From Brachyhypopomus gauderio (lineage: Eukaryota; Chordata; Actinopteri; Gymnotiformes; Hypopomidae), in the NCBI RefSeq assembly GCF_052324685.1, contig NC_135212.1, positions 46,134,712-46,198,711 on the forward strand: a stretch of DNA of 64,000 nucleotides, written 5' to 3'. Below the pieces are notes generated by a model. The model did not search any database and was not told where the DNA came from. It worked only from the letters and a program-made list of their open reading frames with translations. Both the position numbers and the translations under genes were made by a program. Positions 46,958-56,934 of this stretch are shown here, piece after piece (positions within the stretch are counted from its first letter, which is position 1; each line of letters begins with the position of its first letter).

Positions 46958-47016
46958 GGTATGGGGCTGTCTTCAGTGTGCTGGGGGCCTACGCAGCCTG
47001 TGCGCTATTCAGCCTG

Positions 47017-47124
47017 GGGTGGGTTTCCCGAAACGTTCGTAGCGCTAAGTACTTCGTAACCTCGTATGAAACGTATGAGGTTAAGAAGTACTTAGCGCTA
47101 AGAACGTTTCGGGAAACTCACCCC
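47017..47124. mobile_element. Palindromic MITE-like sequence
   Basis: The ~108-bp sequence folds back on itself almost completely. The left arm GGGTTTCCCGAAACGTTCGT pairs with the right arm reading GAACGTTTCGGGAAACTCAC, and TAGCGCTAAGTACTT recurs inverted inside. It sits about 50 bp left of the large foldback element. Confidence 0.7.
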
Positions 47125-47167: not shown

Positions 47168-47176
47168 GTCGCATCA
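47168..47176 (+). repeat. 9-bp target site duplication, left
   Basis: GTCGCATCA directly precedes the left terminus of the foldback element and recurs exactly at 56926-56934 after the right terminus. Confidence 0.85.
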
Positions 47177-47749
47177 ACGAGGCTGAAGTTGGTTACTTAT
47201 TCGCAGTTTGAGATTCGTTTGGTTACTTATTCGTAGCTCCGTATTCGGCGGCTGAAGTTGGTTACTTATTCAAAAAGGTTATGTTCACGATGCGTGTTTG
47301 CTGCGCAATTTGTTTAAAAGCGATAGATTAAACGTTACATTAAACGAGCGTAGGAGCAGACATTTAAGAGGTTATTGTTTCCCATACTGATTTTGTGAAT
47401 GTAAAAAATAAAAATATAATGAAAGCATTTCATTTGTAAAATGGTTTCTATTTCAAGTCGTTTCAATTGTATGCAGTTTGTACATGATGATTGAATTCGT
47501 CATTTCTAACGTAAGGAAACATATTCTTAGATTTGAAACTAAGAACACAGAAATGCTGTTCTAGAACACAAATAATCGGAAGAAGAAATACCAGCACACA
47601 ACATGACATTGAGCAGTGGGCAGATAGGTGAACGCATTTTAAAGGGGCAGTTTCAGAGGATTATTGAAAGCCTTATTGATGGTGGGCCAGAGAAATAACA
47701 AATGCATCATGAAGAACAGGTCACTCCCTAAGAGAGGAACCTGATTTTA

Positions 47750-49740
47750 GCCTCAAATCTAACTGGAAACATGGCATATTGAGTAGTTAAGTGCACAGGT
47801 GAAATGGATCAGAGGGGCATGTTCAGAGGCCTGCTGTATGCCTGTAATGTCTTGGGCCAGGCAAAACTCAATTGACTCATACATAACTAGTTCCTATATG
47901 TAAGAGAAACCTGATTTTGGCCTGGCCCAGAATCATTTTATGCCTCAATTCTAACTGGAAACATGGCATATTGAGTAGTTAAGTGCACAGGTGAAATGGA
48001 TCAGAGGGGCATGTTCAGAGGCCTGCTGTATGCCTGTAATGTCTTGGGCCAGGCAAAACTCAATTGACTCATACATAACTAGTTCCTATATGTAAGAGAA
48101 ACCTGATTTTGGCCTGGCCCAGAATCATTTTATGCCTCAATTCTAACTGGAAACATGGCATATTGAGTAGTTAAGTGCACAGGTGAAATGGATCAGAGGG
48201 GCATGTTCAGAGGCCTGCTGTATGCCTGTAATGTCTTGGGCCAGGCAAAACTCAATTGACTCATACATAACTAGTTCCTATATGTAAGAGAAACCTGATT
48301 TTGGCCTGGCCCAGAATCATTTTATGCCTCAATTCTAACTGGAAACATGGCATATTGAGTAGTTAAGTGCACAGGTGAAATGGATCAGAGGGGCATGTTC
48401 AGAGGCCTGCTGTATGCCTGTAATGTCTTGGGCCAGGCAAAACTCAATTGACTCATACATAACTAGTTCCTATATGTAAGAGAAACCTGATTTTGGCCTG
48501 GCCCAGAATCATTTTATGCCTCAATTCTAACTGGAAACATGGCATATTGAGTAGTTAAGTGCACAGGTGAAATGGATCAGAGGGGCATGTTCAGAGGCCT
48601 GCTGTATGCCTGTAATGTCTTGGGCCAGGCAAAACTCAATTGAATCATACATAACTAGTTCCCATATGTATGAAGAACCTGGTTTTGGCCTGGCCCAGAA
48701 TCAATTTAGCCCTCAAATTTAACTGGAAACACGGCATATTGAGTAAAGCGCATAGGTGAAATGGGTCAGACGGCCAAGTTCAGAGGCCTGCTGTATGCCT
48801 GTAATGTCTTGGGCCAGGCAAAACTCAATTGTATCATACATAACTAGTTCCTATATGTATGAGGAATCTGGTTCTGGCCTGGCCCAGAATCATTTTATGT
48901 GTCAAATTTAACTGCAAACATGGCATATTGGGTAGTTAAGCACACAGGTGAAATGGTTCACAGGGCCAAGTTCAGAGGCCTGCTGTATGCCTGTAATGTC
49001 TTGGGCCAGGCAAAACTCAATTGTATCATACATAACTAGTTCCCGTATGTATGAGCAACCTGGTTTTGGCCTGGCCCAGAATCATTTTAGCCCTCGAATC
49101 TAACTGGAAACACGGCATGTTGAGTAAAGGGCACAGGTGAAATAGTTCAGAGGGGCAATTTCAGAGGCCTGCTGTATGCCTGTAATGTCTTGGGCCAGGC
49201 AAAACTCAATTGTATCATACACAAGTAGTTCCTATATGTATGAGGAACCTGTTTTTGGCCTGGCCCAGAATCATTTTATGCCTCAAATCTAACTGCAAAC
49301 ATGGCATATTGGGTAGTTAAGCACACAGGTGAAATGGTTCACAGGGCCAAGTTCAGAGGCCTGCTGTATGCCTGTAATGTCTTGGGCCAGGCAAAACTCA
49401 ATTAAATCATACACAACTACTTCCAATATGTATGACGAACCAGTTTTTAGCCTGGCCCAGAATCATTTTATGCCTCAAATCTAACTGGAAACATGGCATA
49501 TTGAGTAAAGCGCACAGGTGAAATGGTTCACAGGGGCAAGTTCAGAGGCCTGCTGTATGCCTGTAATGTCTTGGGCCAGGGAAAACTCAAATGCATCATA
49601 CACAAATAGTTCCTATATGTATGAGGAGCCTGAATTTAGCCTGGCCTAGAATCATTTTAGCCCTCAAATCTAAATGGCAAAATGGCATATTGACTAAGCG
49701 CACAGGTGAAATGGTTCATGAGGTGGATTTAAGAGGCCTG
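47750..49740 (+). repeat. 192-bp tandem array, left foldback arm
   Basis: CTAACTGGAAACATGGCATA recurs at 47759, 47951, 48143, 48335 and 48527, an exact 192-bp spacing; these first units are nearly identical. Later units (from 48719) are more diverged. The array continues beyond the hAT insertion at 52455-52870. Each unit contains TTGGGCCAGGC and GCCTGGCCCAGA, an inverted pair. Confidence 0.92.
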
Positions 49741-49748
49741 CTGTATAC

Positions 49749-49756
49749 ATGTAAGG
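49749..49756 (+). repeat. 8-bp target duplication of hAT insertion, left
   Basis: ATGTAAGG precedes the hAT left end and recurs at 52447-52454 immediately after its right end. Confidence 0.92.
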
Positions 49757-52446
49757 CAGGGGTCCCCAAACTTTTTCCTGCGAGGGCCAAATAACTTTTC
49801 TCTTCTCTGATGGGGGGCCGGGGTCAGTTTGAAACAGAAAAGTTTGACAATCACAGGGGTGCTGCAACATTTATTGTTTTCAGAAAGCGACACATAACCA
49901 AACATTAATAACACTTTCCGGGATCTTCACACAAAAAAGTCAAGAAATAAACAATAACACTATTAACAAACTAAATATTAACCATTAACAAAATAAATAA
50001 CAATATTTATGAAATAATAACTAAATAATCCTCTCTGGGTTCTTCACAGAAAAAAGTCTGGTAATAAATAATAACACTATTAACCAACTAAATAACACTA
50101 TTTAAGATAAAAATAACACCATTATTAAAATAAATAACACCAAAAAATGCTCTCTGGGTTCTTCACAGAAAAAAAAAAGTCTGTGGAACATTAACTTTCT
50201 GTTGTGCCGTGCACATCTTAACAGGTAAAGTTGTCAGAACAGAATTTCTTCCTTAAATGACTCATATGAGTAGTCCCTCAAAGTTCTCGTGTTCCTTCCT
50301 TATAATCCTTTTGTAGATTGTAGGTTCTAGAAGGCTTGTAGATACCTTTCTCTCTCGTCAACTTCCTTGTGACCTACACAGCACAATACATTTTTTATGC
50401 ATTTTATCCCAGTAGATTTTATGATCATATTTGTTTATACTCAGAATGACTCATTCAAGTCAGAAAAGTGAGCTTACCTATGTATGTTCATCAGTGTGAA
50501 CTGTGGGCCTGCATTTGGCTGGTGAGAAGTTGAATGTCAGGTTCCATTCTAGTCACAGCCAGTCTCAAACACTGATGCAGATGTTCATCTGTCAATCTTG
50601 ATCTCAGCGAAGTTTTCAGGAGTTTCATGTGCGAAAATGTTTGTTCGCAGATATACGTGCTTCCAAAAAGTGTGGACATCTTCATTGCGTGTTTTTTTAT
50701 GTTAGGGTACGTGTCGTTTGGGAGTGCGGCATAGAAGTCAATAAGACTGTTGGGCTTGAACATGTCTTTCAGAACATCACAGTTCTGTAACTCGGCCAAC
50801 TCAAACTGATAAGAAGGCTGGGCTTCATCGATGTCGGCAACAAAGGGGTTCTGGAAAAGACGGATTTCTTTTGCATGAACATGTAGTTCACGGAATCGCA
50901 CACCGAACTCCGCCTTGAGCATTTCCAGTGCTTCCACGCACTTTTCAGTTGGGAACGGGACCGCTGGGTTCTCTGCAGAGAGGTTTTGGGTAGCAGGGAG
51001 ATGGACGAAGTTGTGCTTTTTCACTTGCTCCAAAAGCAGCGCTAGTTTCACCTCAAATGCTTTTATGTGGGAATACATGTCGCAAATGAGTTTCCCCTGG
51101 CCTTGTAGCTGCAAGTTAAGGCTGTTCAGAATTTCTGTCACGTCTGTTAAAAATGCCAGGTGCCATTTCCACTCTGGGTCCATCAGCTCTGGGACCGTTT
51201 TGTCTTTTGAATGAAGAAATGCGTTAATTTCAGGTAGCAGCTCGTAAAAACGCCTCAAAACTCTGCCCCGGCTCAGCCATCGGACCTCTGTGTAATACAG
51301 CACGTCGCCGTGCGCAGACTCCAGCTCAGACAGGAATTGTTGGAACTCCCTGTGTTTAAGTCCCTTTGCTCTGATTAAGTTTATGCATGACACCACAACC
51401 TTCATGACAGAATCCCACTTCAACACTTTGCAGCACAGTGCCTGCTGGTGAATTAAACAGTGGACTTGTAGCGGGGCGGTGAGACCCCGCTCTTCCATCT
51501 CCCGCTTCACGCGTCCTGTTAGACCCCGAGACGCGCCCACCATACTAGGAGCCCCGTCAGTCGTAATGCTGGCAAGCTTTGACCAGTCCAGGTCCAAGTC
51601 TTCCATGGTTTGGCATACTTTGCCGAAAATATCCTCCCCCGTTGTAGTCCCTTTGAGACTTTGGAGGGCTGCCAACTCCTCGCTCATCTCAAAGTTTGCG
51701 TTAACTCCACGAATGAAAATTACCAGCTGCGCTGTGTCCTGCACATCCGTGCTCTCATCCAATGCTAATGAAAAAAAGTCAAATTCTTTTGTCTTCTGCT
51801 GCAGCTGTACATACACATTACCCCCGATTTCTTCGATGCGTCTGGTGATTGTACTCGCTGACAGACTCACTGCATTGAAGACATCTTTCTTCTCGGGACA
51901 CACTTCCTCCGCGACAGCATTCAAACATTTCTTAACAAACTCTCCATCCGTGAAAGGTTTACCGCTGCTTGCTATAATTTGAGCAACCCGAAAGCTGGCC
52001 CGAACGGATGACTGGTTCAGCTGAGCTTGGCGTACAAATGTATTCTGCTGAGCTAACAGTCCACTTTTTAACTTTAACAGTTTGTCTGCCCGCATTTGGC
52101 CTTGCAAACTATCATACTGGTCTTTGTGACGGGATTCATAGTGCCGTCGTAGATTGTATTCTTTGAATACCGCAAGCGCCTCTAGATGAGACAAACAGCC
52201 TTTTCTTTGCATTGAACAAAAAAATAATCGTTTGTCCACTGCAGGTTAAATACCCTACATTCAGAATCAATTTTTCTCTTACCTAACCTTTTCGCCATTA
52301 CGTTCTCTTTCACAAGGAGCAGTATTTTTTTCCCTGGGGGTAGGGGGGAGGGGGTGTTCCGGGGGCCAGGTCAAATGTTCCGGGGGCCGGGTCAAACGTG
52401 GAGGCGGGCCGTATCCGGCCCGCGGGCCGTAGTTTGGGGACCACTG
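49757..52446 (-). mobile_element. hAT transposon inserted in left foldback arm
   Basis: A 2690-bp element with termini CAGGGGTCCCCAAACT and AGTTTGGGGACCACTG (inverted, one mismatch) and a perfect 8-bp target duplication ATGTAAGG, all hallmarks of the hAT superfamily. It carries one transposase gene on the minus strand. The region between the left end and the gene (49760-50490) is A-rich and has a repeated block, TCTCTGGGTTCTTCACAGAA at 50031 and 50151. The right arm of the foldback shows the same site without the element, near 53736-53760. Confidence 0.93.
50491..52239 (-). CDS. hAT-family transposase, frameshifted in its N-terminal zinc finger
   Basis: A 582-codon frame resembling hAT transposases related to the GTF2IRD2/ZBED-type vertebrate genes. 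It has the BED-type finger remainder (EYNLRRHYESRH), acidic catalytic motifs (LALDESTDVQD, ITTDGAPSMVG), CLIHQQALCCK, EVRWLSRGRVLRRF and the C-terminal dimerisation region (ICEQTFSHMKLLKTSLRSRL). The expected start is an ATG at 52296-52298, whose frame runs 38 codons (MAKRLGKRKIDSEC...) and hits TAG at 52182-52184. Comparison with related proteins suggests a small deletion (about 4 bases) just there, which removes part of the first zinc-binding CxxC and shifts frame. The annotated ATG at 52239 is thus an artefactual start, and the real similarity begins about 16 codons in. Probably inactive, but young. Confidence 0.88.
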   Translation of the reverse strand: MDKRLFFCSMQRKGCLSHLEALAVFKEYNLRRHYESRHKDQYDSLQGQMRADKLLKLKSGLLAQQNTFVRQAQLNQSSVRASFRVAQIIASSGKPFTDGEFVKKCLNAVAEEVCPEKKDVFNAVSLSASTITRRIEEIGGNVYVQLQQKTKEFDFFSLALDESTDVQDTAQLVIFIRGVNANFEMSEELAALQSLKGTTTGEDIFGKVCQTMEDLDLDWSKLASITTDGAPSMVGASRGLTGRVKREMEERGLTAPLQVHCLIHQQALCCKVLKWDSVMKVVVSCINLIRAKGLKHREFQQFLSELESAHGDVLYYTEVRWLSRGRVLRRFYELLPEINAFLHSKDKTVPELMDPEWKWHLAFLTDVTEILNSLNLQLQGQGKLICDMYSHIKAFEVKLALLLEQVKKHNFVHLPATQNLSAENPAVPFPTEKCVEALEMLKAEFGVRFRELHVHAKEIRLFQNPFVADIDEAQPSYQFELAELQNCDVLKDMFKPNSLIDFYAALPNDTYPNIKKHAMKMSTLFGSTYICEQTFSHMKLLKTSLRSRLTDEHLHQCLRLAVTRMEPDIQLLTSQMQAHSSH

Positions 52447-52454
52447 ATGTAAGG

Positions 52455-53321
52455 CATTGGGCCAGGCAAATAACATATGCATCATACATAACGCTTTACT
52501 ATATGTAAGAGAAACCTGACTTTGGCCTGGCCCAGCATAATTTTATGCTTCAAATCCAACTGGAAACATGACACATGGAGTGGTGCGCACAGGTCAAATG
52601 TTGCAGAGCAGCAATTTTAGAGGCCTGCTGTATGCCTGTAAGGTCTTGGGTCAGGCAAAACTCAAATGCTTCATAAATAACACGTTACTCTATGTACGAG
52701 AAACCTGATTTTGGCCTGGCCCAGTAACATTTTAGCTCTCAAATCTAACTGAAAACGTGACACATGCAGTGGTGCGCACATGAAATTGTTCAGGTTGATT
52801 TCAGAGGCTTCCTGTATACCTTTAAGGCGCTGGGCCAGGCAAATAACATATGCATCATACATAACAGGTTCCTGGCCCTCAGATCTAACTGGCAATATGG
52901 CATATTGTGTAGTTTTGCACAAGTGAAATGATACAGTTCAATTGCAGATGCTTGCTGCTATATGCCTCTAATGTCTCAGGCCAGGCAAAAGTCATGCATC
53001 ATATTAAACATGTGCCTATCTATTGGATAAACTAGACTTCAGTTTGTATAATAGTATTTCTAATGCAGTTAAAATATTATATAATGTTAATAGTGCAGTC
53101 TATTAATATTTTATTTTTAGAGAAATTTCAACTACATACTAGTAGGCTTTATTCATGTAATCACACAAATGAATACTCCAACATTGAGACCAGGTTTCTC
53201 CCTAAAAGAAAATCATCATAACTCCAAATTCAATTTCCATTGGTAAATTCAATGCTTGTTTCAGCTCTGGCCAGGAATAGCCCTTTATTCTCAAGAATCA
53301 AGCTAGGTTTCTCTTACACAT
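52455..53321 (+). repeat. Inner left-arm units and central spacer of the foldback
   Basis: 52455-52873 continues the tandem units and matches the right arm inverted, up to AACAGGTTCCT. 52874-53321 is the unmatched, AT-rich centre with one decayed unit and no coding sequence. Confidence 0.75.
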
Positions 53322-56300
53322 AGGAACCTGTTAGGTATGATGCATATGTTATTTGCCTGGCCCAGCGCCTTAAAGGTATACAGGAAGCCTCTGAAATCAC
53401 CCTGAACAATTTCATGTGCGCACCACTGCATGTGTCACGTTTTCAGTTAGATTTGAGAGCTAAAATGTTACTGGGCCAGGCCAAAATCAGGTTTCTCGTA
53501 CATAGAGTAACGTGTTATTTATGAAGCATTTGAGTTTTGCCTGACCCAAGACCTTACAGGCATACAGCAGGCCTCTAAAATTGCTGCTCTGCATCATTTG
53601 ACCTGTGCGCACCACTCCATGTGTCATGTTTCCAGTTGGATTTGAAGCATAAAATTATGCTGAGCCAGGCCAAAGTCAGGTTTCTCTTACATATAGTAAA
53701 GCGTTATGTATGATGCATATGTTATTTGCCTGGCCCAATGCCTTACATGTATACAGCAGGCCTCTTAAATCCACCTCATGAACCATTTCACCTGTGCGCT
53801 TAGTCAATATGCCATTTTGCCATTTAGATTTGAGGGCTAAAATGATTCTAGGCCAGGCTAAATTCAGGCTCCTCATACATATAGGAACTATTTGTGTATG
53901 ATGCATTTGAGTTTTCCCTGGCCCAAGACATTACAGGCATACAGCAGACCTCTGAACTTGGCCGTATGACCCATTTCACCTGTGTGCTTAACTACTCAAT
54001 ATGTCATGTTTCCAGTTAGATTTGAGGGCTAAAATGATTCTGGGCCAGGCCAAAACCAGGTTCCTCATACATATGGGAACTAGTTATGTATGATACAATT
54101 GAGTTTTGCCTGGCCCAAGACATTACAGGCATACAGCAGGCCTCTGAACTTGGCCCTGTGAACCATTTCACCTGTGTGCTTAACTACCCAATATGCCATG
54201 TTTGCAGTTAGATTTGACACATAAAATGATTCTGGGCCAGGCCAGAACCAGGTTCCTCATACATATAGAAACTAGTTATGTATGATACAATTGAGTTTTG
54301 CCTGGCCCAAGACATTACAGGCATACAGCAGGCCTCTGAACTTGGCCCTGTGAACCATTTCACCTGTGTGCTTAACTAAATATGTCATGTTTCCAGTTAG
54401 ATTTGAGGCATAAAATGATTCTGGGCCAGGCCAAAACCAGGTTCCTCATACATATGGGAACTAGTTATGTATGATACAATTGAGTTTTGCCTGGCCCAAG
54501 ACATTACAGGCATACAGCAGGCCTCTGAACTTGGCCCTGTGAACCATTTCACCTGTGTGCTTAACTACCCAATATGCCATGTTTGCAGTTAGATTTGACA
54601 CATAAAATGATTCTGGGCCAGGCCAGAACCAGGTTCCTCATACATATAGAAACTAGTTATGTATGATACAATTGAGTTTTGCCTGGCCCAAGACATTACA
54701 GGCATACAGCAGGCCTCTGAACTTGGCCCTGTGAACCATTTCACCTGTGTGCTTAACTAAATATGTCATGTTTCCAGTTAGATTTGAGGCATAAAATGAT
54801 TCTGGGCCAGGCCAAAACCAGGTTCCTCATACATATAGGAACTAGTTATGTATGATACAATTGAGTTTTGCCTGGCTCAAGACATTACCGGCATACAGCA
54901 GGCCTCTGAACTTGGCCCTGTGAACCATTTCACCTGTGTGCTTAACTACCCAATATGCCATGTTTGCAGTTAGATTTGACACATAAAGTGATTCTGGGCC
55001 AGGCCAGAACCAGGTTCATCATACATATAGGAACTAGTTATATATGATACAATTGAGTTTTGCCTGGCCCAAGACATTACAAGCATACAGCAGGCCTCTG
55101 AACTTGGCCGTCTGACCCATTTCACCAATGCGCTTTACTCAATATGCCATGTTCGCAGTTAGATTTGAGGGCTAAAATGATTCTGGGCCAGGCCAAAATG
55201 AGGTTCCTCATACATATAGGAACTAGTTATGTATGATGCATTTGAGTTTTGCCTGGCCCAAGACATTACAGGCATACAGCAGGCCTCTGAACTTGAACCT
55301 GTGAACCATTTCACCTGTGTGCTTAACTACTCAATATGTCATGTTTCCAGTTAGATTTGAGGCATAAAATGATTCTGGGCCAGGCCAAAAACAGGTTCCT
55401 CATACATACAGGAACTACTTGTGTATGATACAATTGAGTTTTGCCTGGCCCAAGACATTACAGGCATACAGCAGGCCTCTGAACTTGGCCGTCTGACCCA
55501 TTTCACCTATGCGCTTTACTCAATATGCCGTGTTTCCAGTTAAATTTGAGGGCTAAAATGATTCTGGGCCAGGCCAAAACCAGGTTCCTCATACATATGG
55601 GAACTAGTTATGTATGATACAATTGGGTTTTGCCTGGCCCAAGACATTACAGGCATACAGCAGGCCTCTGAACTTGAACCTGTGAACCATTTCACCTGTG
55701 TGCTTAACTACTCAATATGTCATGTTTCCAGTTAGATTTGAGGCATAAAATGATTCTGGGCCAGGCCAAAAACAGGTTCCTCATACATACAGGAACTACT
55801 TGTGTATGATACAATTGAGTTTTGCCTGGCCCAAGACATTACAGGCATACAGCAGGCCTCTGAACTTGGCCGTCTGACCCATTTCACCTATGCGCTTTAC
55901 TCAATATGCCGTGTTTCCAGTTAAATTTGAGGGCTAAAATGATTCTGGGCCAGGCCAAAACCAGGTTCCTCATACATATGGGAACTAGTTATGTATGATA
56001 CAATTGGGTTTTGCCTGGCCCAAGACATTACAGGCATACAGCAGGCCTCTGAACTTGAACCTGTGAACCATTTCACCTGTGTGCTTAACTACTCAATATG
56101 CCGTGTTTCCAGTTAGATTTGAGGCATAAAATGATTCTGGGCCAGGCCAAAAACAAGTTGCTCATACATATAGGAACTAGTTATGTATGATGCATGTGTT
56201 ATTTGTCTGGCCCGACGCCTTATAGGCATACAGCACACCTCTGAAATTGCCCCTCTGAACCATTTCAGTGCGCTCTCTGTGCACTTAACTACTCAATATG

Positions 56301-56340
56301 CCGTGTTTCCAGTTAGATTTAAGGTATAAAATGATGTTGG
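53322..56340 (-). repeat. Tandem array, right foldback arm, with 381-bp higher-order units
   Basis: Inverted relative to the left arm. TAACTACCCAATATGCCATG recurs at 54181, 54562 and 54943, and ACAGGTTCCTCATACATACA at 55391 and 55772, each 381 bp apart. Here two ~190-bp subtypes alternate as dimers, unlike the monomeric left arm. There are about 16 monomers in total versus about 12-13 on the left. Confidence 0.9.
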
Positions 56341-56925
56341 ATCAGGCTAAAATCAGGTTCCTCTCTTAGGGAGTGACCTGTTCTTCATGATGCATTTGTT
56401 ATTTCTCTGGCCCACCATCAATAAGGCTTTCAATAATCCTCTGAAACTGCCCCTTTAAATGCGTTCACCTATCTGCCCTCTGCTCAATATGCCATGTTGT
56501 GTGCTGGTATTTCTTCTTCCGATTATTTGTGTTCTAGAACAGCATTTCTGTGTTTTTAGTTTTCAAATCTAAGAATATGTTTCCTTACGTTAGAAATGTT
56601 GACGAATTCAATCATCATGTACAAACTGCATACAATTGAAACGACTTGAAATAGAAACCATTTTACAAATGAAATGCTTTCATTATATTTTTATTTTTTA
56701 CATTCACAAAATCAGTATGGGAAACAATAACCTCTTAAATGTCTGCTCCTACGCTCGTTTAATGTAACGTTTAATCTATCGTTTTTAAACAATGTGCGCA
56801 GCAAACACGCATCGTGAACATAACCTTTTCGAATAAGTAACCAACTTCAGCCGCCGAATACGGAGCTGCGAATAAGTAACCAAACGAATCTCAAACTGCG
56901 AATAAGTAACCAACTTCAGCCTCGT

Positions 56926-56934
56926 GTCGCATCA
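56926..56934 (+). repeat. 9-bp target site duplication, right
   Basis: GTCGCATCA after the right terminus, identical to 47168-47176. Confidence 0.85.

Follow-up and report, generated by a model that had tools for sequence, protein, structure and literature searches.

The 64,000-nt stretch of the Brachyhypopomus gauderio genome analysed here (the window; C2:46134712-46198711 of a 796.5-Mb assembly, with C2 and similar labels denoting contigs) contains a foldback element of 9,749 bp at positions 47177-56925, a nested insert included. The element is bordered on each side by the 9-bp sequence GTCGCATCA, which occurs in the window, on either strand, only at these two flanks. The first 57 bases of the element are the exact reverse complement of its end, and a terminal domain of ~570 bp aligns between the two ends with few differences. 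The component parts, in window coordinates, are as follows.

47168..47176, no strand: left 9-bp target site duplication GTCGCATCA, found by sequence comparison
47177..47743, plus strand: left terminal domain of the inverted repeat, beginning ACGAGGCTGAAG, found by self-comparison; its 567 bp are also present at 97-100% identity elsewhere in the genome
47189..47271, plus strand: three copies of TTGGTTACTTATTC, starting at 47189, 47219 and 47258; candidate transposase sites
47744..49754, plus strand: left-arm tandem array of 192/189-bp units, found by Tandem Repeats Finder (TRF) and unit comparison
49749..49756, no strand: left copy of the nested hAT-like element's 8-bp duplication, ATGTAAGG, found by sequence comparison
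49757..52446, minus strand: nested hAT-like transposon of 2,690 bp with ends CAGGGGTCCCCAAACT and AGTTTGGGGACCACTG, delimited by its own 8-bp duplication
50491..52245, minus strand: 584-aa open reading frame of the nested transposon, with a hAT dimerisation domain below the Pfam cut-off
52447..52454, no strand: right copy of the nested hAT-like element's 8-bp duplication, ATGTAAGG, found by sequence comparison
52447..52873, plus strand: inner left arm, the array continuing beyond the nested element; 99% complementary to 53322-53748
52874..53321, no strand: central loop of 448 nt; 99.3-100% identical in five other copies and ~96-97% in three more
53322..53748, minus strand: inner right arm; 99% complementary to 52447-52873
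53439..56363, minus strand: right-arm tandem array of 192-bp units and 381-bp double units, found by TRF
56364..56925, minus strand: right terminal domain of the inverted repeat, ending CTTCAGCCTCGT, found by self-comparison
56926..56934, no strand: right 9-bp target site duplication GTCGCATCA, found by sequence comparison

The long terminal pair, 47177-49754 versus 56925-54315, is 89.7% identical over 2,624 alignment columns, and the inner arms are 99% complementary over 427 nt. Between these parts, the left arm is interrupted by a hAT-like transposon that entered the window copy later. The 8-bp duplication of the insert has the length typical of hAT elements, and its terminal repeats are of the CAG type. 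When the insert was removed in silico, the left arm matched the right arm at 120 of 120 bases across the insertion site; hence, the right arm serves as a built-in empty-site control. The 584-aa frame matches the hAT dimerisation domain with E=0.01, below the cut-off of Pfam, has no match among solved structures at E<=0.01, and looks broken near the N-terminus when read by eye. With the insert and one of its two duplication copies taken out, the element measures 7,051 bp and consists of a left arm of 2,999 bp (the second copy of the 8-bp duplication not counted), the loop, and a right arm of 3,604 bp.

An earlier note on this DNA, made from the letters alone, had described an element of ~9.75 kb with exact inverted termini, a perfect 9-bp target duplication and no gene of its own. 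The size, the 57 mirrored terminal bases and the placement of GTCGCATCA bear out this description, and the statement on genes is right for the window copy, gene-bearing relatives being located elsewhere in the genome. The note further stated that the arms pair almost to the centre, which is true of the insert-free element; as the element stands, the 2,690-bp insert intervenes. The potential 3-kb stem that it foresaw corresponds to the insert-free arms of 3.0 and 3.6 kb, and what it overlooked is the nested hAT-like insert and that this stem is made mostly of 192/189-bp tandem repeats.

The tandem arrays of the two arms are mirror-oriented and comprise 10.5 copies of the unit on the left and 15.3 on the right as determined by TRF, or 13 and 16 units, respectively, when counted with a 40-base motif allowing up to 14 mismatches. 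Close to the loop, three units match their counterparts at the corresponding position of the other arm (L10 with R13, 100%; L11 with R14, 99%; L12 with R15, 99%), and the same three units are only 73-79% alike within one arm. The partial units bordering the loop do not pair (71%). The outer units differ by arm, with four identical units in a row on the left and the 381-bp double units on the right. As the near-loop units pair and the outer ones differ, the mirror image predates the latest rounds of unit gain, and the arms gained units separately.

Copies of the element were sought in the window's own genome. A search with the outer 567 bp yielded 506 candidate places; the 40 that were scored were all 97-100% identical, with one 57-base piece in addition. 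The 30-bp terminus, with up to two mismatches, occurs 250 times in the genome (133 forward and 117 reverse) and the reversed-pattern control 0 times, which rules out chance. Positions are known for 99 exact termini, the other ~151 of the 250 having no listed position. Adjacent exact termini within 30 kb of each other form 23 facing pairs, with a median length of 5.3 kb and a range of 1.45-21.0 kb, and three pairs that do not face. Among the 20 stretches and 30 short loci fetched, and counting the window, 16 loci were readable at both ends, and at 15 of these the element is flanked on both sides by identical 9-bp sequences, the exception being the rearranged copy L029 on C15. Equal 9-bp flanks were also found in all three further neighbouring pairs, of 21.0 kb (C6), 13.0 kb (C21) and 12.5 kb (C6). 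Thus, the same 9-bp duplication borders 18 of 19 neighbouring end pairs, and all 18 sequences are different and show no strong base preference. In six fetched copies (L043-L046, L048 and L049) the second end was not found within reach of the stretch. No further copies of the element are present in the window, and the 23-bp terminal pattern gave 0 matches in the prokaryote and virus collections.

The earlier note read the element as a foldback transposon and held that, if no other copies had these exact ends or if their boundaries differed, this would speak for a segmental inverted duplication instead. The terminus recurs 250 times in the genome, and the same ends with 9-bp duplications at many loci uphold the transposon reading. 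Near-perfect large palindromes can also come from foldback repair or misassembly, and under this explanation the structure would be no transposon but an inverted duplication of a segment or a palindrome created by the assembly. It is refuted by the recurrence of identical ends at many loci and on many contigs, with perfect 9-bp duplications that differ from locus to locus, and by the arm-specific fixed differences described below, and is considered extremely improbable. The window element very probably belongs, as a non-autonomous copy, to a foldback transposon family that moves by cut and paste and was active recently.

Within the 15 complete copies, the number of units per arm varies from 3 to 25 in the 12 copies with two-sided arrays, and three short copies have a one-sided array. 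The loop is whole or nearly whole in nine of the 15; six copies on six contigs, that of the window among them, share it at 99.3-100% identity, and three others have it at 96-97%. In the six same-loop copies, the terminal domain exists in two versions, A and B, one of each per copy, which are distinguished by six fixed differences (four substitutions and two one-base indels). Assignment to A or B was made from a FastTree tree with support of 0.66 for A and 0.94 for B. Copies L040 and L047 display the same A/B pattern. Since each of the six copies has one A and one B arm, the mirror-image foldback was transposed as a unit and its arms were not equalised. Transposition of the whole mirror unit in these subfamilies therefore proceeded without arm homogenisation.

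Three copies on other contigs require separate mention. On C6, two left termini with the same direction are located 5.5 kb apart at 33075169 and 33080715, both preceded by TAAATACAT, and the right end at 33093194 has the same flank; a tandem duplication including the left end is the likely origin of this arrangement. A 15.5-kb copy on C1 was considered as an autonomous member and rejected: its extra DNA holds a Tc1-type transposase frame identified by Pfam and a frame that we take to be of a retrovirus-like gag type, and is therefore read as nested inserts. The copy on C33 presumably holds a Gypsy-type element.

Larger relatives of the element carry genes. Loci X (C14:21587273) and Y (C2:9645634) begin with the same terminus and array, which are followed by common gene-bearing DNA. 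X and Y are 97-99% alike over ~12.4 kb of X, and no similarity was found between their flanks; hence, the large gene-bearing members have moved too. No right terminus was found in the 16.8 kb read at X and Y, and X runs into what is presumably a Gypsy-type insert. The common part includes a frame for a YqaJ nuclease, matched by Pfam with E=2.6e-17 in X and E=4.6e-16 in Y. Another frame has no match in Pfam but shows, by eye, a SWIM-like C-x-C...C-x-H pattern, and there is a nested insert that we take to be a long interspersed nuclear element (LINE). The common part also includes the first third of a DUF6729 domain reading towards the terminus (Pfam E=7.4e-23, positions 1-85 of 229).

YqaJ is a very large family in this genome, with 2,081 candidates, and among the 133 matches scored only those of X and Y lie inside stretches known from the foldback family. 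YqaJ nuclease genes are also clustered at C22:1888684-1939501 and on C9, C15, C141 and C166, with places spaced ~8.3 kb in a row.

Genome-wide, the DUF6729 profile matches at 108 places, many of them with near-identical scores, as would be the case for a mobile family, and the X fragment used as a query gave 73 matches from 79 candidates. The five matches to the fragment with the best E-values (93-100%) all adjoin an exact terminus, at distances from the far edge to the end of 12.0 kb (X), 13.7 kb (Y), 12.2 kb (C14:21811479), 1.8 kb (C137) and 20.4 kb (C2:9736603), and all five, as compared by eye, read towards that terminus. As X is the locus of the query itself and Y shares its history, including the nested LINE, only three of the five pairings are fresh. 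No relatives of DUF6729 were found in viral contigs and phages, and no mention of DUF6729 or PF20499 was found in the literature search. Elsewhere, DUF6729 matches with near-identical scores form clusters on C148, C27, C18 and C67, at C3:41.66-41.80 Mb and at C16:9.8-10.5 Mb, and some matches on C1, C3, C9 and C212 lie within a 551-aa open frame that covers the whole domain.

The left flank of X is AATTTATTC. A facing terminus located 236,453 bp away on C14 is followed by CATTTATTC, which agrees with the X flank at eight of nine bases, and also adjoins a DUF6729 gene. The pair C14:21587273-21823725 may represent a single 236-kb insertion, a reading considered about as probable as not, or slightly more so. 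It is also quite possible, if somewhat less than even, that these are two half-elements set apart by chance or by rearrangement. The agreement of the flanks is incomplete, the pair is known from its ends, and loose matches do arise by chance: the same pattern search also returned a C10 site at which all nine flank bases agree and the terminus has two mismatches, and this is at chance level since the control gave one match as well. Moreover, this is the only one of four far facing pairs with both flanks read that agrees; the C2 pair, 111 kb apart, shares five of nine flank bases, and two other far pairs (C14 and C15) disagree as well. Three other gene-bearing ends are orphaned in the genome pattern search, namely Y, with one match that has two terminus mismatches and lies on a different contig, and C2:9756960 and C137:64779, with none. 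Against two half-elements, the facing C14 end is the sole intact right terminus genome-wide with a flank within one mismatch of that of X, and it lies on the same contig, in facing orientation, with DUF6729 on both sides. By our arithmetic, the chance of at least eight matches in nine is ~1e-4 per pair, and two far pairs had been proposed beforehand from their genes.

Two readings of the moving enzyme have to be weighed in particular. The DUF6729 protein is the leading candidate. That the family is moved by this protein, as a not yet recognised transposase of a MULE-like (Mutator-like element) or new superfamily, is judged to have nearly an even chance; the constant orientation of the five best matches beside the terminus and the near-identical scores among the 108 genome matches argue for it. 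Alternatively, the foldback may belong to the Mutator superfamily (MULE or Rehavkus) and be moved by a MULE-type transposase, with DUF6729 and YqaJ as passengers. This possibility is entertained tentatively. The 9-bp duplication in 18 of 19 pairs is within the 8-11 bp of MULEs (PMC6446971), Rehavkus combines 9-bp duplications with a minisatellite (PMC6446971), and the foldbacks Tetris (PMC4079207) and Tm1 (PMC3169594) were assigned to Mutator by their authors. Against it, the Pfam MULE model finds 12 places in the genome and these, as compared by eye, all lie farther than 170 kb from the 99 listed exact termini and from the DUF6729 matches, although the model may miss divergent MULEs. The earlier note had suggested a resemblance to Foldback or Mutator-like elements and an autonomous relative beside a MULE or other transposase. 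Of these suggestions, the foldback structure holds and gene-bearing relatives with the same terminus, bearing DUF6729, do exist; Mutator-like affinity stays a possibility, no MULE domain having been found near the listed exact termini.

The KDZ model likewise gave 12 hits genome-wide, all of them more than 200 kb away from the 99 listed exact termini and, as compared by eye, more than 170 kb away from the DUF6729 matches. Both the MULE and the KDZ domain were provisionally set aside as the enzyme; with 99 of the 250 termini compared, this is not proof. The target duplication of KDZ/Zisupton elements is 8 bp, and that of the foldback family is 9 bp. Duplications in the P superfamily are shorter than 9 bp, which speaks against a P-superfamily foldback like Galileo. 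Such an affiliation is very unlikely, although the long terminal repeats of Galileo are internally repetitive and contain its transposase sites several times (PMC3688188). The duplication also differs from the AT dinucleotide of PHIS/ISL2EU elements, despite the YqaJ gene in two large copies.

Transposase sites were mapped in the terminal repeats of Galileo (PMC3688188), and by analogy the copies of TTGGTTACTTATTC are candidate enzyme-binding sites in the foldback family. They are situated at offsets 13, 43 and 82 from the terminus, with up to one mismatch, and all three are present in 26 of the 30 ends of 15 copies. An enzyme made elsewhere would recognise the terminal ~100 bp with these three copies, excise the element at ACGAGG...CCTCGT, and reinsert it at a presumed staggered cut of 9 bp, without a strong preference for any target sequence. 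What is shown is that the whole mirror image, two arms and the loop, moves as a unit, that the 190-bp arrays grow and shrink independently in each arm, and that in the window copy a hAT-like element later jumped into the left arm. The enzyme would most likely come from the branch of larger, gene-bearing members that share this terminus and have a DUF6729 gene in common.

Several observations weigh against this scheme. At L029 (C15:21643293-21646853), a rearranged copy, the pieces of terminus overlap and the flanks, GAGCAACAT and TCCACATAT, are unequal. In the tree, the two arms of L033 group together, as do all four arms of L038 and L039; this fits homogenised or newly made mirrors and counts against transposition with unequal arms as a general rule. 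With regard to the enzyme, 13 further DUF6729 copies (83-95%) lie more than 30 kb from any listed exact terminus, one of them, on C16, at ~108 kb. The candidate protein is known from its N-terminal domain only. No gene-bearing copy was found to have both termini together with a perfect duplication, and three of the five gene-bearing ends lack a partner, as described above.

In build, the closest known systems are Tetris and Tm1. Tetris is a Drosophila virilis foldback, for which its description reports no autonomous copy (PMC4079207). Like the fish element, it has an outer flanking domain followed by ~220-bp tandem repeats in variable number and a geneless middle, makes duplications of 8-10 bp, and changes array length by duplication of units (PMC4079207). 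The differences are its insect host, its terminal repeats of up to 1,735 bp (PMC4079207) versus 3.0-3.6 kb in the window element, and the gene-bearing relatives known for the fish family; the likeness is one of build. Tm1, a Mutator/Foldback element of the root-knot nematode, shares composite terminal repeats with a variable number of units, 9-bp duplications, mostly non-autonomous copies, and a second transposon nested in one copy (PMC3169594). It differs in its units of 13-15 bp, element sizes of 1,080 and 2,593 bp, and a FLYWCH-MULE transposase (PMC3169594).

More distant likenesses concern single traits. The repeated transposase-binding sites in the long, internally repetitive terminal repeats of Galileo recall the TTGGTTACTTATTC triplet, for which such a function is presumed, whereas Galileo belongs to the P superfamily and has a THAP domain in its transposase (PMC3688188). 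Rehavkus has a 9-bp duplication and a minisatellite as part of the element, but is listed for arthropods and annelids and has terminal repeats of 26-400 bp and a PHD finger transposase (PMC6446971). ISL2EU, of the PHIS superfamily, encodes a YqaJ exonuclease domain in a second gene, but makes an AT dinucleotide duplication and has terminal repeats of 6-259 bp and a THAP-DDE transposase (PMC4482050). The 236-kb candidate resembles the composite transposing element (TE) of Ising in Drosophila, a mobile unit of tens to hundreds of kb bounded by foldbacks, and Teratorn of fish, a large mobile unit holding long inverted repeats (PMC6431247). In contrast, host DNA lies between the foldbacks of the TE, whereas the C14 candidate is known from its ends alone, and Teratorn is a piggyBac-herpesvirus fusion (PMC6431247). 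A broader proposal is a vertebrate foldback family of its own lineage with 9-bp duplications, moved by a so far unrecognised DUF6729 transposase, with members from <2 kb to a 236-kb unit that has DUF6729 genes in both mirror arms and carries hundreds of kb like the foldback-bounded Drosophila TE. Taken as a whole, this is regarded as rather unlikely.

No fish foldback family was described in the titles and opening parts of abstracts returned by the literature search, and Repbase may list the present one under another label. As far as searched, the arms of at least 3 kb, the arm-resolved evidence that the foldback is the moving unit, the link to DUF6729 and, probably, the vertebrate host are new. 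Galileo and DAIBAM, which are of similar build, are known sources of inversions in flies (PMC4079207). A young, high-copy vertebrate family with 3-kb arms would generate inversions, double-stranded RNA and fragile sites. The arm record of the window subfamily indicates that a mirror unit can transpose several times without homogenisation of its arms. Arrays of nucleosome-like unit length that turn over independently in each arm give a direct view of a possible origin of satellite DNA, and the link to DUF6729 offers a testable candidate for a new transposase.

Outside the element, a 109-bp imperfect palindrome at 47016-47124, 88% self-complementary and located ~45 bp to the left, looks like a small inverted-repeat element. 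Positions 1-40000 of the window contain numerous (TG)n arrays, and open frames in the same part recall TAOK, MAZ, NLK and TLCD3B genes.

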